51,010 nt of DNA from a virus. The stretch covers positions 1 through 51,010 of the IMG/VR virus record IMGVR_UViG_3300031576_000064; one strand, given 5' to 3'. The first letter of the stretch is position 1. Each line of letters starts with the position of its first letter. Under the pieces are notes generated by a model. It was not told the DNA's origin. It was given only the letters and a program-made list of their open reading frames with translations, and did no database searches. Of this stretch, positions 4,206 to 50,936 are shown in pieces. Both the position numbers and the translations under genes were made by a program.

Positions 4206-4756
4206 CCCTCCGCTCTGACATCCTCGCGGTCGCGCGAGAGCTCGGAGAGGGCACGCACGAGGACGTAGTGGTCCGCTGTTTCGAGCGCTGGCCCGAGCGG
4301 TTCGGGTTCACGCCGTCGCGTCGGTTACCGGACAGCAACGTCGTCTACCCGCGCCTGTCCGTGCTGATCGCGCGCGGTCTGCTCGTGCATACCGGCCCGC
4401 ACCGATGGCGAGTGCCAGGATTCCATCGCACGCCTCGGATCAACCTCGCGGCGCCCAACCTCGTCGTGCAGACGATCCGCGAGCGCGATGCGATAGTTGC
4501 CGCGCCGGCACCCGAGCCACCGCCACGGCCTGTCGGCCGGCCGACGCATGCGGTGCTGGTGAACGGCGTCGAGGGCGGGCGGTACTCCGACCCCGTGAGC
4601 GCCCAGCGCGCGGCCGATCGCTTGCCGTACAGCGTGCGGAGCGTCCGCGTGGTGCGAATCGCGGATGGCGCGGTGATCGCGCAGCGTGGCGCGTGGAGCG
4701 GGATGGACGCGGCACGGTTCGCGCGGATCGCGGCGCGTGGAGAGGCGGCGGAGTGA
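4202..4756 (+). CDS. Winged-helix-like hypothetical protein
   Basis: 184 aa. The N-terminal 70 residues (LRSDILAVARELGEGTHEDVVV, then RLSVLIARGLLVHTGPHRWRV) look like a winged-helix domain, with helices followed by a beta wing. A Pro-rich linker leads to a C-terminal beta segment (THAVLVNGVEGGRYSDPVSAQRAADR) of unknown type. A DNA-binding role is inferred from the winged-helix shape only. Its stop shares a base with the methyltransferase ATG (TGATG), so the two are translationally coupled. Confidence 0.55.
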   Translation: MTLRSDILAVARELGEGTHEDVVVRCFERWPERFGFTPSRRLPDSNVVYPRLSVLIARGLLVHTGPHRWRVPGFHRTPRINLAAPNLVVQTIRERDAIVAAPAPEPPPRPVGRPTHAVLVNGVEGGRYSDPVSAQRAADRLPYSVRSVRVVRIADGAVIAQRGAWSGMDAARFARIAARGEAAE

Positions 4757-6876
4757 TGGCGCTAGACTTATGCGCCGGTGCGGGCGGCATGTCGCTCGGA
4801 CTGCAACGTGCTGGCTGGGACGTTCGCGGCGTCGAACTCGATGCCGATGCGTGCGAGACACACCGCGAGAACGTCGGACCGTGCGAGCAAGCGGATCTGT
4901 GGGCGTGGCATCCGTCGCATGATGTGGCGCTCGTTGCTGGCGGCATCCCATGTTTCGCCGCGGGCACAATGATACTCACGGAGAGTGGGTATCGACCAAT
5001 CGAGCAGCTTGTCATTGGTGACATGGTACTCACGCACCGCGGGCGCTGGAGACGCATCACGAGCACAATGCGCCGTGACGACGTGCCGCTGCGTCGCGTA
5101 TGCGCGCAGGGCGTCCCCGGTGTAGTCACGACCGACGAACATCCGTTTTATGCGCGCGAACGCGGCCGTCTTTGGGACAATGCGCGCCGCGTGTATGTGC
5201 GTACATTCCGCGATCCTGCATGGTTCGCGTCGATGCGTCTCTCACGATCCCATTATCTCGGGCAAGTACTGCCGCCTATGATCGTTGATGCGCGCGCTCT
5301 AGAATTCTGGTGGCTCGTCGGACGCTATCTCGCCGATGGATGGATCGTTGACGGCAGACGACGCAGCGGCATCACAGGCAAGCGCGGAAGCCGCGTCAAC
5401 AGTTGGCTGCATAAGGTTGTGATTTGCTGCGCCCACGATGAGGCCGTTGACTTGAAGGCTCGCATCGCGGCGGCAGGATTCAGCGCGTCTGAGGTGCACG
5501 AACACACGACACAAAAGTTTCACATCCACTCTCGGGCATTCGTTGACTTCTTGCGACCGTTCGGGCGCTACGCACACGGCAAGACAGTCCCCGGTTTCGC
5601 GCTGTCATTGGAGCCGGGCCGCGCGCGCGAGTTGCTGGATGGCTACTTGAGCGGCGATGGGTGTGCCAGGAAATCGCATCCTCGCGCCGGTCGAAGCGCA
5701 ACGACCGTCAGCAAGTCCCTTGCGCTTGGGATGGCACTGCTTGCCCATCGTGCTTATGGCGTGGTCGCCGGCATCTCGCATGCGGCGATGCCGCCGACGT
5801 GTGTGATCAAGGGACGCGTCTGCAATCAGCGCGATCAATACAGCCTCCGAATCCCGCCGAGCAATCGATCCGCATTCATCGACGCGAGCGGGTATGGATG
5901 GAAACAGATCCGGTCGTCCGAACCATGCGGCGTCGGGACGGTCTTCAATTTCTCCGTGGAGAATGACGAATCGTACATCGCCGATGGCGCGATCGTTCAT
6001 AACTGCCAAAGCCACTCGGTCGCTGGCAAGCGCGGAGGGCTCAGCGATCCGCGCGGGCAACTTTTCGTGCCGTTCCTGCGGATCACGCGGGAGGCTAACG
6101 CCCGCGCAATCCTGATAGAGAACGTCCGCGGGATACTCTCGTCGCGCGCGGAGCGCGATGGGTGGACGGCGTTCGCGGAGGTCCGCGAGGCGTGCGTGCG
6201 TGACGGGTGGCACATGGTAACGAGCCTGCTGGACTGCGCGGATCACGGCGTGCCGCAACACCGCACGCGGCTGTTTTTCGTGGGCTTCCGCGACGCCGCT
6301 GCGCTCTCGCGGTTCCGGTGGCCGGTGCCGTCGCACGGACCGCCAGGCAACGTCCTCGGTCTGCAACCGTGGGTCACGGTGGCGGAGGCGCTTGGGTTGG
6401 CGGGACACGGGCCGCTCGGCCGCATGCGGTTCGTTTCCGCGCCAGCCCCTACGATCGCAACCTCCAGGGATGGCAGTTCTGGGAGCGGGATGCGCGCGAG
6501 GCTTTCGCGGTTGCTTGCACCGTCGCCGACGATTCTTGCCGGTACGAAAGGACTTGGTGGAACGGGGCACGATGAACGCGAATCACGGCGTCCGCTCACG
6601 TCGCTCGCGAACGAGCTGGAGCGGGCAGGGCTCTTGGATAGGCCATGCACAACGGTGGATACGCGCGCGGCGGCGTCAAAAGCTGGGCATCACGAGACGA
6701 ACAAATCCGGTGCCGTCCGTCTCACGGAAGCGCAAGGCGCAGCGCTACAATCGTTCCCGCCGGAGTTCGTTTTCCACGGCCGAACGAAGTCTTCGCGCTG
6801 GCGACAGATCGGGAATAGTTTACCGTGGCCAATGGCCGAAGCGCTCGGACGCGCGATCATGCGGGCGTTGACGTGA
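4756..6876 (+). CDS. C5-cytosine DNA methyltransferase precursor interrupted by an intein
   Basis: 706-aa precursor; removal of the 351-aa intein (residues 66-416) leaves a 355-aa enzyme of normal size for the family. It would transfer a methyl group from S-adenosylmethionine to carbon 5 of cytosine in phage DNA, probably against restriction. Motif I is DLCAGAGGMSLGL (residues 4-16). The catalytic motif IV GGIP|CQSHSVAG is split by the intein, motif VI is ENVRG, motif VIII is QHRTRLFFVGF, and motif X is QIGNSLPWPMAEALG. The target-recognition region lies between VIII and IX and its specificity is not readable. Start by TGATG coupling; the stop overlaps a GTG minicistron. Confidence 0.9.
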   Translation: MALDLCAGAGGMSLGLQRAGWDVRGVELDADACETHRENVGPCEQADLWAWHPSHDVALVAGGIPCFAAGTMILTESGYRPIEQLVIGDMVLTHRGRWRRITSTMRRDDVPLRRVCAQGVPGVVTTDEHPFYARERGRLWDNARRVYVRTFRDPAWFASMRLSRSHYLGQVLPPMIVDARALEFWWLVGRYLADGWIVDGRRRSGITGKRGSRVNSWLHKVVICCAHDEAVDLKARIAAAGFSASEVHEHTTQKFHIHSRAFVDFLRPFGRYAHGKTVPGFALSLEPGRARELLDGYLSGDGCARKSHPRAGRSATTVSKSLALGMALLAHRAYGVVAGISHAAMPPTCVIKGRVCNQRDQYSLRIPPSNRSAFIDASGYGWKQIRSSEPCGVGTVFNFSVENDESYIADGAIVHNCQSHSVAGKRGGLSDPRGQLFVPFLRITREANARAILIENVRGILSSRAERDGWTAFAEVREACVRDGWHMVTSLLDCADHGVPQHRTRLFFVGFRDAAALSRFRWPVPSHGPPGNVLGLQPWVTVAEALGLAGHGPLGRMRFVSAPAPTIATSRDGSSGSGMRARLSRLLAPSPTILAGTKGLGGTGHDERESRRPLTSLANELERAGLLDRPCTTVDTRAAASKAGHHETNKSGAVRLTEAQGAALQSFPPEFVFHGRTKSSRWRQIGNSLPWPMAEALGRAIMRALT
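4951..6003 (+). other. Intein with LAGLIDADG-type endonuclease domain
   Basis: 351 codons in frame inside the C5 methyltransferase. Block A begins C1-FAAGTMILTESGYRPIEQL. Block B has T61-D-E-H64. The endonuclease motifs are LVGRYLADG (122-130) and LLDGYLSGDG (228-237). Block F/G is VFNFSVENDESYIADGAIVHN, ending His-Asn. The next residue is Cys, the usual +1 nucleophile. All residues needed for class-1 splicing are present, so splicing is expected. The two acidic LAGLIDADG residues are also present (Asp129 and Asp236), so the homing endonuclease may be active. The +1 cysteine is also the methyltransferase catalytic cysteine. Confidence 0.92.
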
Positions 6877-6932: not shown

Positions 6933-7759
6933 TCGAGCCAACAAGGCCGTTACACGTGGTAGCATACGGTGGAGGCGTGAACTCAGTCGCGGTGCTCCTG
7001 CGACTCATGGACCTTGGGATCGTTCCACGTGCAATCGTGATGGCCGATCCGGGCGACGAACATCAAGAAACGTACGACTATCGTGACACGATCGTCATTC
7101 CGTTTCTTGCTAAGTGCGGCTACCCGACCATTGAAACGATAAGCCGGAAGAGCGAGGCGCTGTACCGGCCGCGCGCCAAAAACACAAAGCAGAGCACGTT
7201 GCGGGAAGAGTGCATCCGCACGCACTCACTCCCGTCTATTGCCTATGGCTGGAAGAAATGCTCTCAGAAGTACAAAATCGAAGTGCAGAATTGGTACTAC
7301 GATCGACAGCCGTGGGCACACGCCGAATGGGATGCTGGCAACCAGATCGTCAAGGTAATCGGTTACGATGCTGACGAGCCAAATCGCGCGCTACCCACAT
7401 TCGCCAACGACATGGAGCACGCGCGATTCCGACCGTATTATCCTCTCCTCGATGCGCACATGGGTCGCGATGAATGCGAGCGCTTCATCGCCGCGCACGG
7501 TTTGCCAGTCCCGCATAAGTCGGCGTGCTGGTTCTGCCCATCAAACCAGCTCGACGAATGGCGCGAACTGAAAGCACGGCACCCAGAACAGTACGCTGCC
7601 GCGTGCGAGATGGAAGCAAACGCGCACATCACGACGCCGGATGTCGTCGGACTGCTGCGCGCGGCACCCCACGGCAAACGGCAGTTGCGCTTGTGGGACG
7701 GCAGCAATCCCGGCGTGAATCCTGCGCAGTTATTGTTGCCGTGCGAGTGCTCATTATGA
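6929..7759 (+). CDS. PAPS-reductase-family PP-loop protein
   Basis: 276 aa. YGGGVNSVAVLL at residues 13-24 is the ATP-binding PP-loop of the adenine nucleotide alpha hydrolase/PAPS-reductase fold, followed by VMADPGDEHQETY. A KKCSQKYKI segment and a late CWFCPSN (CxxC) could bind a metal. Proteins of this type are frequent in phages. Some members of the fold activate or thiolate substrates by adenylation, but the substrate here is unknown. GGAGG before ATG 6929 supports the start. The gene is flanked by two copies of the same short sequence (6873 and 7756), suggesting it was inserted. It is distinct from the cysH at 50151. Confidence 0.75.
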   Translation: MIEPTRPLHVVAYGGGVNSVAVLLRLMDLGIVPRAIVMADPGDEHQETYDYRDTIVIPFLAKCGYPTIETISRKSEALYRPRAKNTKQSTLREECIRTHSLPSIAYGWKKCSQKYKIEVQNWYYDRQPWAHAEWDAGNQIVKVIGYDADEPNRALPTFANDMEHARFRPYYPLLDAHMGRDECERFIAAHGLPVPHKSACWFCPSNQLDEWRELKARHPEQYAAACEMEANAHITTPDVVGLLRAAPHGKRQLRLWDGSNPGVNPAQLLLPCECSL

Positions 7760-8148
7760 CCGCGCTCGCGCTATTCCTCGCGCTCTCGCACGGCCGCAGC
7801 GGACCGCACACCGAGGCGGTCGCGCGCGCGATCGAACGGGCGGCGCATACCGCGGCGTACCGACGCTCGCTCGTGGCGATCGAGTGGGTTGAGTGCAGGC
7901 TCACGCTCTGCCGCTGCGCCTTCGGTGTGATTCGGCTGTGCGGCACGACGGACCTCGACCGCGCCGCGCGCGTTGCGCTCGCGATTTATCGGCGCGGAGA
8001 GCGAGTCTGTCGCCATACCCGGAGTCCTGGCGCTCGCTGGTACTACCTCGGATCATGCCGTCGTACGCGCGCCGGTCTGCGATACGAGCGCACGTTCCGC
8101 GCTGTTCTCCGGTCGCTACGTCCCGTCGCTGTTCGCCGCAGTCGGTAG
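7756..8148 (+). CDS. Possible lysozyme-fold (lytic transglycosylase-like) protein
   Basis: 130 aa, ATGA-coupled to the upstream gene. After an N-terminal helix, AIEWVECRLT (residues 41-50) places an E-C-R where soluble lytic transglycosylases have E-S-R. FGVIRLCG follows, resembling the GLMQL segment, and WYYLGSCRRTRAGLRYE sits near the end. This suggests a lysozyme-like fold with catalytic Glu46 and a possible role in cell-wall cleavage. The match is weak. It is the last rightward gene of this run and overlaps the convergent gene at 8116 by 33 bases. Confidence 0.4.
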   Translation: MTALALFLALSHGRSGPHTEAVARAIERAAHTAAYRRSLVAIEWVECRLTLCRCAFGVIRLCGTTDLDRAARVALAIYRRGERVCRHTRSPGARWYYLGSCRRTRAGLRYERTFRAVLRSLRPVAVRRSR

Positions 8149-27059: not shown

Positions 27060-28028
27060 CTACGCCGTAACTCCGGTGAGCTTGCCGTGCTTGTTGCGGC
27101 TCGTGACTTTGAGCGCGCAGGCGAACGAAACCACCGTGGTTTCGTCGTCGTTCGTCTTGCCCATTTTCTCGACGGTCACGTCCCTGTGCACCACGAGCTC
27201 GATGTCCTCAAGTTCCATCATGTACAACTCGGTCGTTGTCGTGCGCGGCGTCGCAACGATCGGAATTCCGTTCCACGACACCCCACCCTGTGGCGTGACC
27301 ATGTTTCCCATGTCGAACTTCTGCCCGCTCATGCTCGGCGGAACGAACCGAATCAGCGACGTCGTCGCGCTCGCACCTGTCGTGCGAACGTGATTGGTCA
27401 CCTGGTTCGGCGCGGTGAAGATGATGCTCGGTCGCGCACCGCGCGCAACGCTGCCTGACGTCGAGTTGATTAGATCTTCGTACAGATCCTCAAGCATCGT
27501 GATCGAGTGCGCTCCGCCAACAGCTGTCTCCCGCGACGCCCAGATCGTCGTCGTCGCCGAGTTGATGCCAGCGTACGTCCCGGAGCTGTCGATGATCGAC
27601 GCAAGGCCCTGATCCTGCGTGGCGTTCCACAACGTCTGCTCGACGAGATCAAACATGTCCGCCGTCGCCTTCTGAATCTCGATCGCGAGCACGTCCTCGT
27701 ACGTGCCGCGGTTGCGGACCTGATCGTTGACGTGGCCGCTGTGCCCGGCGACGGCTCGCGTGTAGAACACGGCGAGCGACGCCTGCGCGTACGTCTGCCT
27801 CCCAGCTACCGGGAGCGCCTGGGCTTCGACGTAGACCTCGGTCGCGGTGTTCGCGGCGGTGATGAGATTCCAGACGATCGGGCTTGATCCGCCTGACTGC
27901 GAGACGCGACCGCGTTCGCGAAGCGCGTTGAGCAGCGCTGTGTCGCGAAATGGCAGGTCGGCCGCCGAGCCGACGACGTTGGGGCGAACGAGTGACGATG
28001 AGATGCCGGAGTTTACGAGCTGAGCCAT
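27060..28028 (-). CDS. Major capsid protein
   Basis: 322 aa. MAQLVNSGISSSLVRPNVVG, then AADLPFRDTALLNALRERGR, and a C-terminal beta domain (VTPQGGVSWNGIPIVATPRT, ELYMMELEDIELVVHRDVTV, VVSFACALKVTSRNKHGKL). This end, with a strand-rich P-like domain and 'F-CALKVTSRNKHGKL', is typical of HK97-fold capsid proteins. The scaffold-like gene lies just upstream. No separate protease was identified. Confidence 0.8.
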   Translation of the reverse strand: MAQLVNSGISSSLVRPNVVGSAADLPFRDTALLNALRERGRVSQSGGSSPIVWNLITAANTATEVYVEAQALPVAGRQTYAQASLAVFYTRAVAGHSGHVNDQVRNRGTYEDVLAIEIQKATADMFDLVEQTLWNATQDQGLASIIDSSGTYAGINSATTTIWASRETAVGGAHSITMLEDLYEDLINSTSGSVARGARPSIIFTAPNQVTNHVRTTGASATTSLIRFVPPSMSGQKFDMGNMVTPQGGVSWNGIPIVATPRTTTTELYMMELEDIELVVHRDVTVEKMGKTNDDETTVVSFACALKVTSRNKHGKLTGVTA

Positions 28029-31024: not shown

Positions 31025-32659
31025 CTACTCCGTTACGGGCGGAACGGATGCGCCGTTCGTTGGTGACGCGGTGCGCTGCCTCTGCTCTGCAATCTGCGCC
31101 TGCCTCGCCGCATCGAACACCGCGGCATCCTGGCCCATCATCGCGCGAACCGGCTTGAGCCACTCGTCGATCTGATCGTCGCTCGCGTTCAGCGCTGCGT
31201 CGAACACCTGCCGCAACGCCGCGAGCTTCGGCTCGGCTCCGGTCTCAATCGGCAGACCCAACACGCTCAGCGCGTTGCGGATATCCTCGCCGATGTCCGG
31301 CAGCGTGAACCTCCGAGCGTACGTCACCACCGGATCGAACGGCCGCGACACAAGCCTCCCGATCAGCGAGAGCATCCGCACCTCGTAACGCTGCATGTTC
31401 CGCGCAAACCTCGACGCCCGCGAGTTGAAGTCGCGCGACCGAATCCTCAACGCCTCGCCGCTCTGAACCTGCGCGCTCTGATCCGCCGCAACCTCTAGCC
31501 CGGTCGTACGGAACGCCAGCGCCACGCGGAACACGCACGATTCGCGCAACTCGCGACTCGACTCGCTCGACGGCGCAATCCACTGCGGCGCGCCCGTCTC
31601 GCTGTTGTACGGAATCGCCGTGTTCATCCCGAGCGCGAGGCGCGTCTGCGAATCCATCTGCCCGCCGGTGCGGCCGAGCGGGATCGTGAGCTGCGGGAAC
31701 CCGGCCTTGCGGTGAATCTCCGACTCCCACGAGAGTTTGTTGTACACCTCGCGCGCCAGGTCCGCAGCGTCGTCGATCAGCGAGATACCGAGCGGCCAAC
31801 GCGAGTCAGACACACGACGGAAAAACGCAAACTCAACCGGAATTCTGCCACCGAGTTGAGACGGCAACGGCCCGCTCATCTGCCTTCCGTCTGGCGAGAA
31901 CGCAGGCGTTACCGTCCCAGCTGTCCTCGCGCCGTACAACGTGGACGCGCTTCCGCCGATCGTCGCGTCAACGACGCTCCATCCTCCTGGTCCAGCAGCA
32001 CTGTCCGCACGCCACACACGCACGCGGATCGTCTGCTGCGTCGGCGCAACAAGATCCTGCACGTACGGCGACTCGGCGTACGCAAACTCCGTCACCTGCC
32101 CGTGCTCGTCCGCGTCGATCCATGCCCACGACGTCGGAGGTACGATCACGACGAACGGCCGCACGCCCATCGCTGCCTCGGCCGCCGCGCTCGCCGCCGG
32201 ATTCGCCGCCGGTGTGTCGACGACGGTCGCGACACAGCCGTACGTCGCAGCCCATCGCGCAATCTCTTCCGCGTGCTCGGCCCACGAACTCCCGCGCCCG
32301 TCAACGTCGTCGAGATACGCTGCGATCGGATCGACCTCACGCCGCACGCCGCCGGTCACACTCTCGGCGTATGCATCAACGATCGGCTGGCACACGTTCA
32401 CGAACGACGCAAGCGCAAGTCGCGACAGAAAGTTCGCGTCGTTCTCAAGCGGGTGCGGAATCAGGTAGCTCGTGTACCGCTTGCGCTCGCGTAGGTCGAC
32501 GACGCCCTCGGATTTCTCGTACGTCTCGTAGAGCGTCTGATCCGTAATGCTCGTGCGCGACGGGCTGCGGTAGCGCTCGCCGCCCCAATACGAATCGTGC
32601 AGGAACGCCCAGCGCGCACGCATGCGATCGTACGTCGCACCTCCATCGTAGCCGCTCAT
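31025..32659 (-). CDS. Portal protein
   Basis: 544 aa. SGYDGGATYDRMRARWAFLH leads into helical regions (FVNVCQPIVDAYAESVTGG), a long central strand/helix body (PFVVIVPPTSWAWIDADEHG), a stem-like helix (DAADLAREVYNKLSWESEIH, RKAGFPQLTIPLGR), and a C-terminal helical tail. Length and place right after the terminase genes support the portal, the dodecameric DNA channel and packaging motor dock. Resembles the DUF4055/SPP1-gp6 style by shape; not verified. Confidence 0.75.
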   Translation of the reverse strand: MSGYDGGATYDRMRARWAFLHDSYWGGERYRSPSRTSITDQTLYETYEKSEGVVDLRERKRYTSYLIPHPLENDANFLSRLALASFVNVCQPIVDAYAESVTGGVRREVDPIAAYLDDVDGRGSSWAEHAEEIARWAATYGCVATVVDTPAANPAASAAAEAAMGVRPFVVIVPPTSWAWIDADEHGQVTEFAYAESPYVQDLVAPTQQTIRVRVWRADSAAGPGGWSVVDATIGGSASTLYGARTAGTVTPAFSPDGRQMSGPLPSQLGGRIPVEFAFFRRVSDSRWPLGISLIDDAADLAREVYNKLSWESEIHRKAGFPQLTIPLGRTGGQMDSQTRLALGMNTAIPYNSETGAPQWIAPSSESSRELRESCVFRVALAFRTTGLEVAADQSAQVQSGEALRIRSRDFNSRASRFARNMQRYEVRMLSLIGRLVSRPFDPVVTYARRFTLPDIGEDIRNALSVLGLPIETGAEPKLAALRQVFDAALNASDDQIDEWLKPVRAMMGQDAAVFDAARQAQIAEQRQRTASPTNGASVPPVTE

Positions 32660-32692: not shown

Positions 32693-34003
32693 TCACCGCG
32701 CACGACCATCCACCGTCGTCAGCGCCATCACGGCGTATCGTAGCGCGTCCATCGCGTGATCCGGCGTGTTCTGGTTCGGCTCCTCGGTCGCCGCGCCCTT
32801 CACCTCGCGCCACACGTACCCCTCGACCTCGCGCACGGTATTCACGCATGCGTCGCTCACGACGAGACCCGGCGCACCGGCCCCGCGCTGTTGGAGCATC
32901 GCGATCGACACACGCCGGATGCCGTCCGCTACCGAGTTGTCCGCGTTCTCAACGACGGGTCTGCCGCCCAACGCCAGCCGCACCGCCGTGATGTTGTCCG
33001 GCTCGCTAGGGTCCGCAACGAATCGCTCCACCGGCGCGCACGACTTGCGCATCGCCTTCGCGATCCGCAACCAACCTACATCTGTCACGAGCAAATCACG
33101 GTGATACTCCTCGGCGAACACGACGAGCTGCCCGGTCCCAGTCGCACCGACGGCGAGCATCACACCCGGAGCAACACGTCCCCAGTCCACGCCGACCACG
33201 ATGCACCTGAAGTTCCAGCGATTCCGTCCGGCATCGTACCAGCGCCGCCTCACCTCGTCCGCCGGCACGAGATGCCACGGCTGCCCGTTCCGCGTGCGCT
33301 GCCATTCATCGTACACGCGGCCGGCCAGCGCCTCGAACGCAGCCTCATACTCCTGCCGGAACACGCGCCCAGGCAACGTCCGCTTCGCCTCTGCGATGTC
33401 GCTCTGCGGAACGAATCCACCGTCCGCCGTCGTGTAGATCCACGATCTCCACTCGGCGTCATGCTGCGGCCCTGGCTGCCCGCGATCGAAGGCGTCTTTC
33501 AGATGATTGTGACCGCGCGGTTTTCCGCACAGCAATGCCCGCCCGTTGCGATCCGCAAGCGTCGGGCGAATGCTCTTCTCCCACGCCGCGAGCTTCATCT
33601 TCCCGAACTCGTCCAGCACCACAGCGACAAGCCCCACGCCCTCGAGATGCTCCGGGTCGTCCGACCCGCGCAGCGCAATCTTCCGCCCGCCAGGCAGCGT
33701 CACAGTCAACTCGCTCTCGTTCTTCGCCACACGCATCCCGCGCGTCAGCCCGACCAGAATGTCCCACGCAATCGCCTTCGCCTGCACGCGAAACGGCGCG
33801 ACGTAGTACCCGAGCGCACCGTCCTCTCGCGCGCGAACCTCACGGATCAACCACAGCAACGCGAGCACAGTCTTTCCAAACCGACGCCCACTGACGAGCA
33901 CAAGAAACCGCTCCCGCGCTCGCCAGATCGCAGCCTGCCGCGGCGTCAACCTCCACGTCTGCCGGCCCGGCTCGACACGCGGACCGACTACGGCCGGAGT
34001 CAC
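32693..34003 (-). CDS. terL: Terminase large subunit
   Basis: 436 aa from GTG 34003 (GTGA overlap). Packaging ATPase: Walker A SGRRFGKT (residues 38-45), Walker B VAVVLDEFGKM with Asp131/Glu132, coupling region nearby. The nuclease domain begins IVVGVDWGRVAPGVML, with a second acidic motif VADPSEPDN and a final PDHAMDALRYAVMAL. All core motifs of the phage terminase are present. It drives DNA into the head and cuts it; headful packaging would agree with the circular closure of this sequence. Confidence 0.92.
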   Translation of the reverse strand: MTPAVVGPRVEPGRQTWRLTPRQAAIWRARERFLVLVSGRRFGKTVLALLWLIREVRAREDGALGYYVAPFRVQAKAIAWDILVGLTRGMRVAKNESELTVTLPGGRKIALRGSDDPEHLEGVGLVAVVLDEFGKMKLAAWEKSIRPTLADRNGRALLCGKPRGHNHLKDAFDRGQPGPQHDAEWRSWIYTTADGGFVPQSDIAEAKRTLPGRVFRQEYEAAFEALAGRVYDEWQRTRNGQPWHLVPADEVRRRWYDAGRNRWNFRCIVVGVDWGRVAPGVMLAVGATGTGQLVVFAEEYHRDLLVTDVGWLRIAKAMRKSCAPVERFVADPSEPDNITAVRLALGGRPVVENADNSVADGIRRVSIAMLQQRGAGAPGLVVSDACVNTVREVEGYVWREVKGAATEEPNQNTPDHAMDALRYAVMALTTVDGRAR

Positions 34004-39908: not shown

Positions 39909-40033
39909 TCGCGTGCCTCGGTGGCGCACTCGGCGCACGGATGTTGCGGCACCGCGGCAACGATGTGCGTATCGTCGCACGCCTCGCAGTGCTCGCGTGC
40001 CTCGGTGGCGCACGGGTTGGCTGGTGTGGTCAT
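39905..40033 (-). CDS. 42-aa Cys-rich protein with internal repeat
   Basis: ATG 40033 and TGA both overlap neighbours (ATGA at each end). TTPANPCATEAREHCEACDD then THIVAAVPQHPCAECATEAR E. Four Cys plus His suggest a zinc finger. The unit CATEARE occurs twice, encoded by two 21-bp direct repeats (39909-39929 and 39994-40014). Confidence 0.6.
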   Translation of the reverse strand: MTTPANPCATEAREHCEACDDTHIVAAVPQHPCAECATEARE

Positions 40034-43973: not shown

Positions 43974-44062
43974 CGCCGCTGAACGGATCGAAGCTCGTGC
44001 GTTCCGTCGAGATCGAGACTGGCGTTGCGTGGTCAACGCGCGGGAGGAACGGACGTGAGTGA
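43970..44062 (+). CDS. 30-aa peptide
   Basis: GTG 43970 overlaps the nuclease stop (GTGA) and its TGA lies past the next GTG, an 8-base overlap. TPLNGSKLVRSVEIETGVAW then STRGRNGRE. It carries the GGAGGAA ribosome site of the helicase inside it. Supported by the overlaps only. Confidence 0.4.
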   Translation: MTPLNGSKLVRSVEIETGVAWSTRGRNGRE

Positions 44063-45449
44063 CGCATACCGTGAGTTCGTTGCGCGCAAGTCACAACTCG
44101 ACTCCGACGGCGGTTTCGCGCCGGTGTTCATGCCGAGATTCCTGTTCGACTTTCAGGCCGCGCTCGTCGAGTGGGCAGTGCGCAAAGGGCGCGCGGCACT
44201 TTTCGCTGATTGTGGGTTAGGCAAAACACCGATGGCGCTGACGTGGGCGCAGAATGTCGTGCAGCACACGAACGGTCGTGTGCTGATCCTCACCCCGCTC
44301 GCGGTCGGCGCGCAGTTCGTGACCGAGGCGGAGAAGTTCGGCATCGAGGTTCACCGCACAACGGACGTTGGCGGGCCTGGGATCTACATTGCAAACTACC
44401 AGCGGCTGCATCGTTTCAACGCGAGCGACTTCGCGGGCGTGGTGTGTGACGAGTCGAGTATCCTCAAAAACTTTGACGGTTCTACGCGCGCAGCAATCAC
44501 CGAGTTCATGCGCGAAAGGCCCTATCGTCTGCTCACGACGGCGACGGCCACTCCGAATGACGTGACGGAACTCGGGACATCGAGCGAGGCGCTCGGGCAG
44601 CTTGGGCATATGGACATGCTCAATCGGTTTTTCAAGAACGATCAGAACACCTCCGACGTCGGACGGAAGTGGACAAACCACGGCGGCGGCGGCCCACAGT
44701 GGCGCTTCAAGGGCCACGCCGAGCAACCGTTCTGGCGCTGGGTTTGTTCGTGGGCTAGGTCGCTACGCAAGCCGAGCGACCTCGGATTCAGCGATGAGCG
44801 TTTCGTTCTGCCGCCGTTGAACGAACGCGAGCACATTGTCGGCGCGACGAAGCCGCGCGATGGCATGCTGTTCGCGCTACCGGCACAAGGACTCACGGAA
44901 CAACGTCAGGAGCGTAGACACACGGTTGCTGAGCGTTGCGCGAAGGCAGCGTCGCTCGTTGTCGGCACGCGGCAACCCGCGATCATGTGGGCGCATACGA
45001 ACGCCGAAGGCGATCTCATGGAGTCGCTCGTGCCTGACTCGGTGCAGGTCAGCGGCGCAGATAGTGACGACGAGAAGGAAGAGAAGTTCGCCACATTCAT
45101 CGCTGGAGAGAAGCGCGTGCTCGTCATCAAACCTGCTATCGGATGCTTCGGACTGAACCTACAGAACTGCGCACACATGACGGTATTCGCAGGATACAGC
45201 TTCGAGCAATACTACCAGGGCGTGCGGCGCTGCTGGCGCTTCGGGCAGACGCGCTCAGTGACGGTCGATCATGTTGTCTCAGACGGAGAGGGCGAGGTGT
45301 TGGCAGCGCGACGACGCAAGGCGCTCAACGCTGACAGACTCTTCGAGTCCATCGTCGAGCACATGAGAACAGAACTGCAACTCGGGCGTGGCACGTACGG
45401 CGACAAACCAGAGGAGCTACCGCAATGGCTGTGTTCGATCAGCGCGTGA
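44055..45449 (+). CDS. SNF2-like SF2 helicase
   Basis: 464 aa from GTG 44055, behind GGGAGGAAC. FDFQAALVEWAVRKGRAALF then ADCGLGKTPMAL (Walker A 52-58), VLILTPLAVGAQFVTEAEKF, motif II VVCDESSILKNF (Asp132-Glu-Ser-Ser), LTTATATPND, C-terminal motifs VSGADSDDEKEEKFATFIAG, KPAIGCFGLNLQNC, YQGVRRCWRFGQTRSV. An ATP-dependent DNA translocase of the phage SNF2 type. Its end overlaps the methyltransferase by 25 bases. Confidence 0.85.
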   Translation: MSDAYREFVARKSQLDSDGGFAPVFMPRFLFDFQAALVEWAVRKGRAALFADCGLGKTPMALTWAQNVVQHTNGRVLILTPLAVGAQFVTEAEKFGIEVHRTTDVGGPGIYIANYQRLHRFNASDFAGVVCDESSILKNFDGSTRAAITEFMRERPYRLLTTATATPNDVTELGTSSEALGQLGHMDMLNRFFKNDQNTSDVGRKWTNHGGGGPQWRFKGHAEQPFWRWVCSWARSLRKPSDLGFSDERFVLPPLNEREHIVGATKPRDGMLFALPAQGLTEQRQERRHTVAERCAKAASLVVGTRQPAIMWAHTNAEGDLMESLVPDSVQVSGADSDDEKEEKFATFIAGEKRVLVIKPAIGCFGLNLQNCAHMTVFAGYSFEQYYQGVRRCWRFGQTRSVTVDHVVSDGEGEVLAARRRKALNADRLFESIVEHMRTELQLGRGTYGDKPEELPQWLCSISA

Positions 45450-46438
45450 CGGATCGATGGGCAGTGTACAATGGAGACTCGTGCGAAGTGCTGCCGATCT
45501 TACCGGCCGGCAGCGTGCACCTGTCCGTGTATTCTCCGCCGTTCGCCGGACTGTACCACTACAGTTCGAGTCCGCGCGACCTGTCGAATGCGCGCAACCG
45601 CGACGAATTCTTCCGGCACTATGAGTTCATCGTCGCGGAACTTCATCGACTGACAGTGCCGGGGCGCGTCTCGTGCGTGCACTGCGCTGACATCCCGAGC
45701 GGTAACACCGGATGCGACACGCTCTATGATTTGCCTGGCGACATCATCCGCCTGCACGAACGTCTCGGCTTCAACTTCGTTGCGCGGTACGCAATATGGA
45801 AAGAGCCGTTGACCGTGCGCAATCGCACGCTTACGAAATCGCTTGCGCACAAGTCGATCGTCGATGATTCGTCTCGGTGCTCGAACGCGAGTGCGGATTA
45901 TCTGCTCGTGTTCCGGCGATCCGGCACGAACACAATTCCGATCGTGCATCCCACTGGATTGCAGGAGTACATCGGCGACCGCAAGATGCCGGCCGCACTG
46001 TTGAGTTTCCGAAACTGCAAAGGCAAGCAGACGGAGAACCGTTACTCGCATTGGATATGGCGACAGTACGCGAGTGCATTCTGGGATGACGTGCGGCTCG
46101 ACCGCGTGCTGCCGTACCGAGAGGCAAAGGACCAGGAAGACGAGAAGCACGTTCACCCATTGCAACTCGATGTGATCGAACGCGCGCTCGTGCTGTGGAG
46201 CAATCCGGGCGAAACGGTGTTGACTCCGTTCATGGGCGTCGGGAGCGAGGTCTACGGCGCGGTGCGGAACGGTCGCCGCGCAATCGGGATTGAGCTCAAG
46301 CCGAGCTACTACCGGCAAGCGATCCGCAATCTCGACTACGCTGCGGACGAGGCGCTCGCGAGTGAGAAACAAACTGCGTTCGCGTTCGAGTCGGACTCGA
46401 TGGACGACGAAGCTCCAGTCGCCACGGAGACGGCATGA
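45425..46438 (+). CDS. N4-cytosine/N6-adenine DNA methyltransferase (beta class)
   Basis: 337 aa. Catalytic motif SPPF at residues 37-40 comes before the SAM-binding motif (VLTPFMGVGSEVYGAVRNG, RRAIGIELKPSYYRQAIRNL), the order of beta-class enzymes. SPPF/Y is usual for N4-cytosine enzymes but also occurs in N6-adenine ones, so the base is left open. Expected to modify phage DNA. Ends on the ATG of the Cas6-like gene (ATGA), so it is co-translated with the CRISPR-type operon. Confidence 0.82.
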   Translation: MAVFDQRVTDRWAVYNGDSCEVLPILPAGSVHLSVYSPPFAGLYHYSSSPRDLSNARNRDEFFRHYEFIVAELHRLTVPGRVSCVHCADIPSGNTGCDTLYDLPGDIIRLHERLGFNFVARYAIWKEPLTVRNRTLTKSLAHKSIVDDSSRCSNASADYLLVFRRSGTNTIPIVHPTGLQEYIGDRKMPAALLSFRNCKGKQTENRYSHWIWRQYASAFWDDVRLDRVLPYREAKDQEDEKHVHPLQLDVIERALVLWSNPGETVLTPFMGVGSEVYGAVRNGRRAIGIELKPSYYRQAIRNLDYAADEALASEKQTAFAFESDSMDDEAPVATETA

Positions 46439-47331
46439 CCACCTGCCCTCACTGCGCCACGGAGTTCGTCCCGCGCGACGGCAAGCAGGTCACGTGTGGT
46501 GCGGACCGCTGCCGGTGGCGCAGAGCATGGGAGCTGATCAAGCGCCGGCCCGATGTCGTCGCTCGCAATCGAGCGCGCTGCCAGCGATGGGCCGCGACGC
46601 ATCGGAACGTGCACACTCCGCAGCCGTGGCTCGTGGGTCCGCCGCCGTTCGCGCCGTACCTGCCAGGCGGGGCGTGCGAGATTACGATTTCCCCGGTGCC
46701 GCGCTGGCCCATCGAGCTACGCAACGCTCGTGCGCTGCACGGCGTACTGACTGCGCTGACGAAGCGCCGGCACGGCCAGCACCCGGCGTGGTCGCTGATC
46801 CCGTGGCAGTCCGGGTGGGCGGTCTACTGGTACGGCGACGACGATGCGCGGCGGTTCGCCGGCACGAGACACGCGATCAATCTGTTCCATGCGGATCGTG
46901 AGATTAGGTTCTCGCACCTCGCGCGGTTCCGCGCGCCCGTCGTGACGCGCCGCGGACGCACGCGACTCCGCGTCGATACGATCACGCCAGCAACGCTGTC
47001 GCGGCATGGGCACAAGACGGCGCTGTTGCCGCTCACGAGCGAGGCGATTGAGAAGAGCTTGCGCGCGCTTGGCGAACGGTTCGGGATCGATTCGCCGGTC
47101 AAGGCCGATCCCGTGCGGCACGAACTCCGTCGCGCACTCGTGAGCGTCGGCGGGCACTGGCAGCGCGGCACGGCTAAGCCAGGACTCGTGGTCGCGTGGG
47201 AGGGATGGTTCGAGGCGGACTGCAACGCCCCGGCCGCGTGGCTGATGCGCGTGGCGGAGCGCGTGGGATTCGGGGGAACGACAGCGATCGGGTTTGGTCG
47301 CGTGCGCGTGAGCGAGGTAGATCGTGCGTAG
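46435..47331 (+). CDS. Cas6-like RAMP protein with N-terminal zinc ribbon
   Basis: 298 aa. Residues 4-26 form a zinc ribbon (CPHC and C21/C26). The body has a ferredoxin-like pattern: CEITISPVPRWPIELRNARA, LHGVLTAL (His102), GWAVYWYGDDD, then IRFSHLARFRAP, LRVDTITPATLSRHGHKTAL and a C-terminal glycine loop VGFGGTTAIGFGRV (278-290). That loop and the 'LHG' position resemble Cas6-type crRNA endonucleases. It directly precedes csf1. Type IV-B loci normally lack Cas6, so this is either a lineage-specific addition or another RAMP subunit. Catalysis is unproven. Confidence 0.55.
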   Translation: MTTCPHCATEFVPRDGKQVTCGADRCRWRRAWELIKRRPDVVARNRARCQRWAATHRNVHTPQPWLVGPPPFAPYLPGGACEITISPVPRWPIELRNARALHGVLTALTKRRHGQHPAWSLIPWQSGWAVYWYGDDDARRFAGTRHAINLFHADREIRFSHLARFRAPVVTRRGRTRLRVDTITPATLSRHGHKTALLPLTSEAIEKSLRALGERFGIDSPVKADPVRHELRRALVSVGGHWQRGTAKPGLVVAWEGWFEADCNAPAAWLMRVAERVGFGGTTAIGFGRVRVSEVDRA

Positions 47332-48286
47332 CGCATCGCAACTCCTGCACGCTGCGCTTGGCGCGCCGCGCTTCGCCGGATGCGACGACCATACCGACGC
47401 ATGCTGGGTATGTGGTGGACTCGCCGACCGCACGATGCCGCGCGCCGACTGGATGGGCGCACAGTTCGTCGGGCAGAACCGCGCGCGCGCATGGTCATCG
47501 CCGCGCGTGTGCGAGCCGTGCGCGTGCGTGACGGCGTGGACGACGCCGGCAACCATGCCCGTGCCGGGACGCGCGTCGAAGCCCGGCGCGAAACGCGACC
47601 TCATGTGGCGGTTGTTCAGCGTGCTTTACGACGATGGTCACGTGACCGTCGCGAACAAGGGCGACAAACCGGCTATCCGCGCGTGGCTCCGCGCGCCGAA
47701 GCGGGGGCCGTGGTTCGCCGCCATCGCGGACAGCGGGCAGAAGCACGTGGTGCCATGGGCTCCGGTCAACGGCGCGCGTGGCACATCGCGCGTGCTGTTC
47801 GAGGAGATGGAAGTCACGCTCGGCGACTGGCGACTCGGCGACGACATGACCGCGCTACTCACCGCCGGCCCGAGTAAGGACGAGATCGCAGCGGGCGAGT
47901 ACCGCCCGCAGAACTGGCAACGATGCCAGAGCGCCATCGAATCGTTCGAGACATCGTGGTCGAGCACGCGCGCATCGCCATGGTGGCTGCTCGCGCTGTG
48001 GCTCTCGCAACGAGACGAGGCGGCGGTGTCCGCCAGAATGGAGATAGAGAATGCTGAACGAAGAGCAAAGGCGAAGACTCGAAGCACTCGCAGTGCCGGT
48101 GATTCTGGCGCTGCGGGCCGAGTACCTCGGAAGCGGAAGTCCGAACGTGCTGAAGCACTGGGACATCCTGCACGACAGGATGCGCCTGTCCGCGAGACAA
48201 ACGGCGAACGCGGAGGAGTGGATCACGCTGTTGCGACGCCGGTTGTGCCTGAGCGCGCCGACGGTCCGCAGCTCGACCTGTTCTGA
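47324..48286 (+). CDS. csf1: Csf1-like (Cas8-type) type IV CRISPR protein
   Basis: 320 aa from GTG 47324, overlapping the Cas6-like stop by 8 bases. Zinc-finger pairs Cys27/Cys30 (ACWVCGG) and Cys63/Cys66 (VCEPCA), then WAPVNGARGTSRVLFEEMEV, the Csf1 pattern of N-terminal Cys4 followed by a mixed body. Identification rests also on its order before csf2 and csf3. The last 78 residues are encoded by DNA also used by cas11 in another frame, look low-complexity, and end QLDLF, the consensus of a sliding-clamp-binding peptide. Confidence 0.7.
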   Translation: MRSASQLLHAALGAPRFAGCDDHTDACWVCGGLADRTMPRADWMGAQFVGQNRARAWSSPRVCEPCACVTAWTTPATMPVPGRASKPGAKRDLMWRLFSVLYDDGHVTVANKGDKPAIRAWLRAPKRGPWFAAIADSGQKHVVPWAPVNGARGTSRVLFEEMEVTLGDWRLGDDMTALLTAGPSKDEIAAGEYRPQNWQRCQSAIESFETSWSSTRASPWWLLALWLSQRDEAAVSARMEIENAERRAKAKTRSTRSAGDSGAAGRVPRKRKSERAEALGHPARQDAPVRETNGERGGVDHAVATPVVPERADGPQLDLF

Positions 48287-48440
48287 CGCGCTCGTGAGTG
48301 AGGCGCGAGATATCGATGCGGGCGCGACGTTTTGCGCGCTCGTTGAATCACGGTGCGCGTTGCTGATTGCGCGCGCCAGAGTGCAGGCGGATACACAACG
48401 AGCGGCCGACGCCGCCGCAGCAACGAGGGAAACAGAATGA
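48051..48440 (+). CDS. cas11: Cas11-like small subunit candidate
   Basis: 129 aa, helical: NEEQRRRLEALAVPVILALR, HWDILHDRMRLSARQTANAE, EWITLLRRRLCLSAP, SRCALLIARARVQADTQRAA. Starts inside csf1 (236-base out-of-frame overlap) behind GGAGATAGAGA, and overlaps the csf2 start by ATGA. Position between Cas8-like and Cas7-like genes and the all-helix content match the small subunit of type IV-B complexes. No sequence signature exists, so the call depends on context. Confidence 0.55.
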   Translation: MLNEEQRRRLEALAVPVILALRAEYLGSGSPNVLKHWDILHDRMRLSARQTANAEEWITLLRRRLCLSAPTVRSSTCSDALVSEARDIDAGATFCALVESRCALLIARARVQADTQRAADAAAATRETE

Positions 48441-49501
48441 CAACGACGACCACGGATACGCACACAGATACGCAGACCGATGGACCGCGCCAGGCGCGCG
48501 GCGCTACGCACGCACGCTACGAGATGATCTTGGAAGCTGTCGAGCCGATCGCTCACGCGGAAGGCACGATCGGCAATGCGTCGATCTGCATGCAGCGGAA
48601 GATTCGCCAGCCTGACGGTACGATCATCCGCGTTCCGATTGTGACGGCCGATGCGATGCGCCATCAGATCCGCGAAGCCGGAGCGTACGCATTGCTAGAC
48701 GCCGCGGGGCTACTAGATGGCGCAGGACCGCAGCTCACGGAGGCAGCGCTGCGCCTGTTGTTCAACGGCGGCATGCTCACGGGGCGCGGTGATGCGAGCG
48801 CCGTAAAGCTCACGGAGTTCCGTCGGATGATCGAGACGCTGCCGACGCTCGCGTTGCTCGGCGGCTGTGCGAACAATCACCTCGTGCAGGGGCAGCTCAT
48901 CATCGGCGATGCGATGCTTCTCTGTATCGAGACGCAGCACTTCGCGTCGCCGTGGGCAATCGAGTGGCTCACCGCGTGCGACACGCGACTCGTGTCGCAT
49001 CGCGAGCACATCGACGAGGAGCAGCGTGTGCGTTTCGATCCGACGCGGAACAAGCACACTGCGCGATTGCTCGATGCCGGCGCGCGAGATCACGTGGCGC
49101 GCGAACTGGACGCGAGTGAAGCGGCGCACGACGACGACAACGCCGTGGCGCGCGAACGCACGAAGTCGACGATGATGCCACGGACAGCGGAGGTGCTGGC
49201 TCCTGGATCGCTGTTTTTCTGGAGCGTCGAGGTCATCGCGTACACGGAGCTTGAGCTTGACACTTTTCACACGGCGCTTACGTCGTTCATGGCGAGGATG
49301 CGCGTGGGCGGCAAGCAAGGGACCGGACACGGTTTGCTGCGCGCGGTCGTGGGGAATCGTGTCGCGTTGGCAAGACCGAGCGAACGCGCCGAGACGATGG
49401 ACATGACCGCGCTCGCCCCGCGCATCGGGGAGTTGTTCCGCGCGCATGCGAAGGAGCACTCGGCTGCGATCCGCGCCGCGCTCTCTACGGTGGATGCGTG
49501 A
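48437..49501 (+). CDS. csf2: Csf2-like (Cas7-type) backbone protein
   Basis: 354 aa. After a Thr-rich start: YEMILEAVEPIAHAEGTIGN, RVPIVTADAMRHQIREAGAY, EAALRLLFNGGMLTGRGDAS, then LPTLALLGGCANNHLVQGQL and IIGDAMLLC. Later RMRVGGKQGTGHGLLRA (loop 291-299). These are the hallmarks of type IV Csf2/Cas7: the 'SGNALR'-like helix, 'LF-GG' and 'LPxLxLLGG' segments, and a Gly-rich loop. Six or so copies would line the guide RNA. Confidence 0.82.
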   Translation: MTTTTTDTHTDTQTDGPRQARGATHARYEMILEAVEPIAHAEGTIGNASICMQRKIRQPDGTIIRVPIVTADAMRHQIREAGAYALLDAAGLLDGAGPQLTEAALRLLFNGGMLTGRGDASAVKLTEFRRMIETLPTLALLGGCANNHLVQGQLIIGDAMLLCIETQHFASPWAIEWLTACDTRLVSHREHIDEEQRVRFDPTRNKHTARLLDAGARDHVARELDASEAAHDDDNAVARERTKSTMMPRTAEVLAPGSLFFWSVEVIAYTELELDTFHTALTSFMARMRVGGKQGTGHGLLRAVVGNRVALARPSERAETMDMTALAPRIGELFRAHAKEHSAAIRAALSTVDA

Positions 49502-50154
49502 GTCCGCTGCACGTGCGTGCGCTCGTGCCGCAACAGATCGTGCTGCGCGGCAACGGCACGCTCGCGCTCGACGCCCTGCTCATGGCAGCGGTGTGCAAGC
49601 GCGATCGGATTCCTCCGATCACGGTGGCGCGCGCGGAGGGTTATGCGCCCGCTCCCGAAATTCCGATTGCGCGCAGCGAGCACGACCCGCGCATTCACCT
49701 CGCGACGCACGCACGACCGAAGCTCGTCGAGCACGAGTTGCGATTCAAGAACCGGCGCTTCCCAGTGCGCGAGGCGCTGCGGCTGTCCGCGATGTCTCGT
49801 GTCGATCAGAGCGCAGGCCCGCAGAAGTCGTATCGGATTCCGTACTCGGCCGGCTTTGTGGACTGCGGAGCGATCGATTGGTGGTGCGTGGGCGATGCGG
49901 ACGGCGTGCGCGACCTGCTATCGTGGATCACGGGACTCGGCTCGCACGTCGCCGTCGGGTACGGCCGCGTTGACGAGTGGACCATCGAGTCGTGCGAGTC
50001 GTGGGATGGATTTCCGCTCGTGCGCGACGGAGTACCGCAGCGCGCGTTGCCGCTCGATTGGCCCGGCGTAACGGAATCTGTGGTGGGATTCGCTGTGCTC
50101 GAACCGCCGTATTGGGAGCGTGCGCGCGAAGAACCGGCGATGGTGGCGGTATGA
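49498..50154 (+). CDS. csf3: Csf3-like (Cas5-type) protein
   Basis: 218 aa from GTG 49498 (GTGA overlap). LHVRALVPQQIVLRGNGTLA, LDALLMAAV, IPPITVARAEGYAPAPEIPI, RFPVREALRLSAMSRV, GLGSHVAVGYGRVDEW (146-161) and late AVLEPPYW. The opening 'ALDALL' and the 'GYGRV' strand are typical of Csf3, the Cas5-like subunit that caps the 5' handle of the guide. Overlaps cysH by ATGA. Confidence 0.78.
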   Translation: MSPLHVRALVPQQIVLRGNGTLALDALLMAAVCKRDRIPPITVARAEGYAPAPEIPIARSEHDPRIHLATHARPKLVEHELRFKNRRFPVREALRLSAMSRVDQSAGPQKSYRIPYSAGFVDCGAIDWWCVGDADGVRDLLSWITGLGSHVAVGYGRVDEWTIESCESWDGFPLVRDGVPQRALPLDWPGVTESVVGFAVLEPPYWERAREEPAMVAV

Positions 50155-50936
50155 GTAGCTTCGGCGCGATTGCGGCGATGCCGGCTGATCGCGAGGTCTA
50201 CGAGCTGCACGCGCGTACGAGTGCGTTCGTGCGGCGAGTCGCGGTCGCTCGATCATTCGCGCGCGAGGCGTTCACGCATGGCGGCTGCGTGATCTCGTCG
50301 TCGTGGGGAAAGGACTCGACTGCACTCTGCGATCTCGTGCTCGACACGGTAGGGCACGTGCCGATCCTGCACCTGGCGAGCGTGTATCGACTGCCGGGAT
50401 GGGAGCGCGTGCATGAGCACTTCGCTGCGCGCACAGACGTGCATGTGATCGACCCGAAGCGCACGCTTGCTGAGACAATCGCGTGGCTGCGCGACGTTGG
50501 ACTCGGGTTCGAGCGCACGCGCTCGCAGAGCAAGATTTCGCACCGTGCGAAGTCCGACTCGGGAGCGCACTGGTGCGCCGAGCGCGGCGTGCGCGTGCAG
50601 TTCCTCGGCATGCGGATCGACGAGGGCGGCCCACGCGCTCGCGTGCTGCGTTCGCGCGGCGCAGTGTATGCGCGCGCAGACGGATCGGTGATCGCGTGTC
50701 CGCTCGCCAGGTGGACCTCGCGCGATGTGTGGGCGTGGATCGTGTCCCGCGGCCTACCGTACCACCCGCTGTACGACTGCGAGACACACGGGCAGACTCG
50801 CGAGACGCTGCGAAACACCGGATGGCTCACGACGATCGACGTGCCCGACGGCCGCCTGGTGTGGTTGCGGTCGCACTACCCGGAGCAGTGGCGGCGGATC
50901 ACAGCGGAGTTCCCTAGGCTGGGGCAGGTGTCGTGA
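50151..50936 (+). CDS. cysH: CysH-like PP-loop protein of the type IV-B operon
   Basis: 261 aa. VISSSWGKDSTALCDLVLDT (PP-loop 49-56, with W in place of the usual G: SSWGKDS for SGGKDS), VPILHLASVYRLPGWERVHE, AHWCAERGVRVQFLGMRIDE, CPLARWTSRDVWAWIVSRGL, YDCETHGQTRETLRNTGWLT. PAPS-reductase fold with the later ACPLxxW segment. A cysH gene adjoining csf1-csf2-csf3 is the trademark of type IV-B CRISPR-Cas; its biochemical role there is unknown. Different from the family member at 6929. Confidence 0.8.
   Translation: MSSFGAIAAMPADREVYELHARTSAFVRRVAVARSFAREAFTHGGCVISSSWGKDSTALCDLVLDTVGHVPILHLASVYRLPGWERVHEHFAARTDVHVIDPKRTLAETIAWLRDVGLGFERTRSQSKISHRAKSDSGAHWCAERGVRVQFLGMRIDEGGPRARVLRSRGAVYARADGSVIACPLARWTSRDVWAWIVSRGLPYHPLYDCETHGQTRETLRNTGWLTTIDVPDGRLVWLRSHYPEQWRRITAEFPRLGQVS

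Follow-up and report, generated by a model that had tools for sequence, protein, structure and literature searches.

Gene content and type membership

The linear IMG/VR virus record IMGVR_UViG_3300031576_000064 (51,010 bases, analysed over its full length and called the window below) carries, at positions 46435-50936, six plus-strand genes encoding Cas6-like, Csf1, Cas11, Csf2, Csf3 and CysH-like proteins, which almost certainly constitute a type IV-B-like CRISPR-Cas effector operon. This assignment is well supported because of the profile matches, the gene order, the placement in the Cas-type CysH clade and the closest relatives, which are located in other phages. What goes beyond the sequence-only reading that had first proposed such an operon is the Cas6-like gene, the nesting of cas11 within csf1 and a Csf1 tail of the clamp-binding type. 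On the sequence data as a whole, we lean slightly towards an IV-B-like RNA-binding complex that has its own RNA-processing RAMP and would be held at replication forks by binding to DnaN, the sliding clamp of the host.

All six genes were found on the plus strand where the sequence-only reading had placed them, or close by. The profile matches were strong for Csf1, Csf2, Csf3 and the CysH-like protein, and modest for the Cas6-like protein and Cas11. The gene csf1, encoding the Cas8-like large subunit (47324..48286, +), matched PADLOC typeIV_Cas8 (1.6e-21) over residues 12-234 and has relatives in phage loci; the protein consists of a core of approximately these residues with a tail after it. 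The Cas7-like backbone gene csf2 (48437..49501, +) gave a PADLOC match of 1.6e-43. Its product aligned with the phage Csf2 profile in hhalign with 99.7% probability (E 2.8e-26, 310 columns), and its best solved relative was the IV-B Csf2 of 7jhy. The Cas5-like gene csf3 (49498..50154, +) matched PADLOC (2e-29) and TIGR03116 (3.3e-16). The proposed identity of the proteins starting at 48437 and 49498 as Csf2-like and Csf3-like was thus upheld by Cas7 and Cas5 profiles. The ATGA/GTGA overlaps that had been said to link all genes occur at four junctions (methyltransferase/cas6, cas11/csf2, csf2/csf3 and csf3/cysH), but not at cas6/csf1, with an overlap of 8 nucleotides (nt), nor at csf1/cas11, where it is far longer.

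The operon has the csf1/csf2/csf3 core, the Cas11 small subunit and the Cas-type CysH-like gene, all of which are features of type IV-B. No DinG-type helicase, a feature of type IV-A, was found among the open reading frames (ORFs) of the operon. A Cas10-like large subunit with an HD domain, a feature of type IV-C, was not found either, as the large subunit matched Csf1 and no HD domain was reported in it. Membership in type IV-A was rejected because DinG is lacking and Cas11 is present, and membership in type IV-C because the large subunit is Csf1 and not an HD protein. Published IV-B systems are without cas6 or another enzyme for processing CRISPR RNA (crRNA) (PMC8175902, PMC7937560), and the present operon departs from them by its Cas6-like gene product (P0001). 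It was therefore filed as an IV-B-like variant; the original assignment holds in this wider form, not as plain IV-B. No CRISPR array was detected in the 51,010 bases, which end 74 bases past the operon; the search yielded only Gly-rich repeats where the record begins and one short pair (24 nt, 84 from start to start) at 39909, inside an ORF. Adaptation genes were not found among the phage proteins scanned against profiles, a subset of the ORFs of a record that may be incomplete.

The last gene of the operon (50151..50936, +) matched Pfam PAPS_reduct with a value of 8.7e-16. In the tree, its product fell in the Cas-CysH group together with the IV-B CysH proteins of plasmids and phages, nearest to that of the locus L111, and apart from phage CysH and genuine reductases. 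The P-loop is retained in the Cas-CysH group (SSSWGKDST in the operon protein), and the group is devoid of the SIGC..CT or CxxCP cysteines, which the reductases and phage CysH have. The missing cysteines fit the view, put forward in PMC8175902, that CasCysH is no reductase. A second PAPS-reductase-like gene of the phage (6929-7759) grouped with ordinary phage CysH, and a part for it in the IV-B-like system was ruled out on this basis.

The Csf1 tail and the nested cas11

The gene cas11 (48051..48440, +) begins 236 nt before csf1 ends, is read in the +1 frame relative to it and is preceded by a Shine-Dalgarno-like GGAGAT (48040..48045, +). The tail beyond the Csf1 core arises from this overlap. 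The encoded small subunit of 129 amino acids (PADLOC Cas11_1_IV, 8e-4) has the same position and frame as the Cas11 of the relatives. The nested layout was common to most phage relatives, with overlaps of about 120-250 nt and the +1 frame throughout, except for the pair L175/L176 (+2). It was not seen in the plasmid loci L003 and L102 nor in the Skermania phage SPI1, in which cas11 is separate or barely overlapping.

The last five residues of Csf1 are QLDLF (codons at 48269..48283, +), a canonical beta-sliding-clamp-binding pentapeptide. The C-terminal consensus QLxLF is that of binding to the bacterial sliding clamp and recurs in the transposases of mobile elements (PMC4549789); phage Csf1 shares this feature of clamp-binding proteins. 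Among the relatives, Csf1 carries QLSLF, QLTLF, QLALF, QLDLF, QFDLF, QYSLF, QLSMF and similar sequences at or near its C-terminal end; most of the relatives with a tail have such a pentapeptide. The motif was present in the last 45 residues of 16 of 27 Csf1 proteins and in none of 208 other ORFs of at least 200 amino acids (Fisher 5e-18, a value that is no true probability, since the loci are related).

The nucleotides behind the motif encode, in many relatives, a stretch conserved in Cas11 (F-I-N-S-L-C-S). The tail could thus be an overprinting by-product, the nucleotides being kept for Cas11 and merely read in the Csf1 frame. As a null for overprinting, Cas11 was randomly recoded with synonymous codons and the Csf1 frame was then scored for the motif. 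Shuffled codons almost never yielded it: of 28 distinct loci, 19 had QxxLF where selection on Cas11 alone predicts 0.58, and 8 had the strict form, for which the prediction is 0.07. For this phage alone, the chance of the motif under recoding was about 0.005 (strict) to 0.018 (QxxLF). Moreover, the motif is perfect in this phage while the Cas11 residues have diverged (VRSSTCSD), and L175/L176 overlap in the other frame with Csf1 still ending in QLELF. The identity of codons for the same Cas11 residue among relatives was 0.56-0.61 inside the overlap and 0.36 past the end of csf1. All of this speaks against a by-product, which we regard as very unlikely, and, by comparison of the sequences, the QLxLF motif of phage Csf1 is under selection.

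It is rather probable that the Csf1 tail docks the complex on the clamp, and the conservation of such a tail, which lay beyond the reach of the sequence-only reading, suggests the replication fork as the site. Two observations weigh against this role. The motif counts come from related phage loci and are not independent, and the tail is missing in the IV-B phages L119/L164, L161, L168 and L114 and in SPI1; clamp docking is therefore not needed by all of them. An open literature search gave no publication tying IV-B to the sliding clamp, which is weak evidence. On a plasmid of Rhodovastum atsumiense (L003), Csf1 has no tail, and the separate Cas11 (7444-7914) ends in QLELFEAA, a motif of the clamp type.

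The Cas6-like gene and the proposed complex

The first gene of the operon (46435..47331, +) encodes a Cas6-like RAMP of 298 amino acids, which matched NCBIfam TIGR01877 (1.4e-6) and PADLOC Cas6 (3.6e-7). Of the two hallmarks of Cas6, a C-terminal G-rich loop and a ferredoxin-like domain, it carries the loop (GFGGTTAIGFGRV), which is matched by the profiles and aligns with that of Cas6 from other phage IV-B operons. When the whole records of 32 relatives were searched, Cas6 matches were obtained in three of them only, namely L174 (5975-6622), L175 (7437-8084) and L176 (7090-7794). These are clear Cas6 genes (E down to 1e-16) located within or adjoining phage IV-B operons, at a position that differs among the three, and they rule out that cas6 is unique to this phage. 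Perhaps a few phage IV-B operons have acquired a processing-type RAMP, and more than once. The three proteins have an invariant IHD, which may hold the catalytic His; in an alignment by eye, the RRHG of the present protein falls at about the same place. Single-protein scans with P0001, P0004 and P0005 gave no viral relatives.

Several points count against a processing enzyme. The Cas6 profiles cover the C-terminal half of the protein alone, the scores fall under the curated cut-offs, and AlphaFold models of the protein, alone and with three relatives, were unusable (predicted local distance difference test values of 38 and 34). The N-terminal half, left unmatched, includes a zinc-finger-like extension (C4-C7-C21-C26). 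These properties would suit a RAMP of another role, for example an extra subunit of the complex, which we consider possible but doubtful. Such a role is at odds with the best profiles, all of which are Cas6, with the G-loop shared with clear Cas6 proteins of phage IV-B operons and with the His situated where those proteins have theirs. Judging from these likenesses, we hold the chances that the protein acts in guide processing to be about even.

The solved IV-B complex is an RNA-bound filament of Csf2 and Cas11 with Csf3 and Csf1 attached (PMC7937560). By analogy, Csf2 of the phage would form a backbone wound on RNA and lined by Cas11, Csf3 would occupy one end, and Csf1 would serve as the large subunit. 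The Cas6-like protein would probably trim the RNA used in assembly, derived either from the repeats of an array beyond the end of the contig or from host repeats. The QLDLF tail is proposed to bind host DnaN and so to bring the complex to replication forks. There, with the nucleotide-binding CysH-like protein as the acting partner, its target could be the DNA of the phage, of the host or of a competitor.

The sole IV-B complex purified so far bound heterogeneous RNA (PMC7937560), which weighs against the proposed complex. It suits instead a guide sponge, a role already proposed for IV-B (PMC7937560, PMC8175902), in which the complex, indifferent to sequence, covers small RNAs or crRNAs of the host and blunts its RNA-guided defence, Cas6 and the Csf1 tail being secondary. 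The window without an array is in line with this. A sponge leaves the CysH-like gene unexplained, as was also argued in PMC8175902, together with the Cas6-like gene and the selection for the clamp-type motif, and we judge it unlikely.

A further alternative is RNA-guided competition between elements, in which the phage would have its own array beyond the contig end and act on plasmids or other phages in the manner of type IV-A. It can draw on the Cas6-like gene, on the linear contig stopping so soon after cysH and on an IV-B virus published with a mini-array (PMC10848311). On the other hand, the operon has no DinG-type helicase and no array was found at the cas6-bearing loci L174-L176 (surroundings of the operon, and the whole record for L176), a result that, like the lack of an array in the window, is also unfavourable to the proposed complex. 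The stretches scanned in the other relatives gave no arrays. Competition of this kind appears quite unlikely. As to the suggestion of the sequence-only reading that plasmids or rival phages are the targets, the data speak neither for it nor against it.

The fork-docked complex with its own RNA-processing RAMP thus remains the reading to which we give slight preference. Its extension to phage IV-B-like complexes in general, as replication-fork machines in which Csf1 docks on the clamp, Cas6 supplies RNA and CysH alters or tags the nucleic acid there, is tentative; if true, it would supply the missing function of type IV-B. A phage IV-B operon with a Cas6-like gene and a peptide that predicts DnaN as the host partner makes the questions of IV-B function, RNA and CysH testable.

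Related loci and the carrier phage

With Csf2 alignments as queries, IV-B Csf2 was found in 32 other distinct IMG/VR contigs, most of them with the gene order csf1-cas11-csf2-csf3-cysH. Type IV-B in tailed viruses of Bathyarchaeia has been published in a paper that also refers to prophages and several lytic phages with type IV systems (PMC10848311; see also PMC11656645). Phage-borne IV-B is a known, recurrent kind and not a new one. The carrier, which the sequence-only reading had expected to be notable, is indeed a phage with terminase and portal genes; it is not notable in itself, given that published case and the at least 32 other contigs. These occurrences suggest that phages, and not plasmids alone, are a major home of type IV-B systems. 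A sample of 396 genomes of one phylum added few type IV Csf1 proteins. In the Csf2 tree, the protein of this phage formed a deep, lone, long branch whose exact place is not fixable.

Plasmid-type IV-B systems (for example Mycobacterium sp. JS623, PDB 7jhy; Rhodococcus plasmids) share with the phage operon csf1, cas11, csf2, csf3 and the Cas-type CysH, and adaptation genes, an array or DinG were likewise not seen in them. The phage operon adds the Cas6-like gene, the cas11 nested in csf1, the QLDLF tail and the tailed-phage carrier, and its Csf2 is only about 25% identical to that of plasmid IV-B. Type IV-A (Csf1-3, Csf5/Cas6, DinG and array) resembles the operon in csf1-3 and in having a processing enzyme, but it includes DinG and an array while being devoid of Cas11; the phage operon, by contrast, combines Cas11 with CysH and is without DinG. 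The Bathyarchaeia virus Fuxivirus also carries the IV-B set and CysH in a tailed virus genome; it differs in its mini-array, its host and its sequences, and no cas6 is described for it in the cited parts of PMC10848311. The IMG/VR loci L110-L124 and L149-L177 share the order csf1-cas11(nested)-csf2-csf3-cysH and the clamp-type tail, and L174-L176 also Cas6, while most of them have no cas6, unlike this phage. Skermania phage SPI1 (KR011061; L002, 6831-10464) is an isolated phage with a complete csf1-cas11-csf2-csf3-cysH set annotated as hypothetical. It has no cas6, nested cas11 or tail motif, and offers a tractable model for phage IV-B.

Two side observations concern related loci. An Ignavibacteria metagenome-assembled genome holds two different IV-B-like Csf2 loci (L109 and L133), with cysH adjoining csf2 in L109. 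In L163, a palindrome-like repeat of 28 nt (GACTCATCGGACAAAATGTCCGATGAGT) recurs almost unchanged several times at positions 1494-1659, upstream of the phage IV-B operon; the copies resemble iterons within a coding region.

The carrier was identified as a tailed phage because a terminase large subunit (32693..34003, -; phrog_2, 3.5e-34), a portal protein (31025..32659, -; phrog_145, 1.3e-41) and a major head protein (27060..28028, -; phrog_9953, 1.5e-18) are encoded on the same record. The phage is deeply divergent, the portal proteins closest to its own in the phage collection being those of Nitratiruptor phages, at about 23% identity. No tRNA genes were found in the 51,010 bases. The plus-strand early module comprises helicases, RecT-like and exonuclease genes and a DNA methyltransferase. 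The helicase upstream of the operon (44025-45449) matched the phage DNA helicase families phrog_62 and phrog_16. The methyltransferase (45425..46438, +; phrog_67, 2.3e-38, and Pfam N6_N4_Mtase), of a type frequent among phages, lies directly 5' of the six-gene operon and is coupled to it by the ATGA overlap with cas6, which speaks against an assembly chimera. The guanine-cytosine content of the operon by codon position resembles that found elsewhere in the phage. The relatives of the methyltransferase and terminase that were examined carried no type IV Cas7. Elsewhere in the window, a protein of 823 amino acids (4405-6876) joins a DNA-methyltransferase part (residues ~534-822) to an N-terminal part, which matched phrog_36001 and phrog_26446 (labelled anaerobic ribonucleotide reductase).

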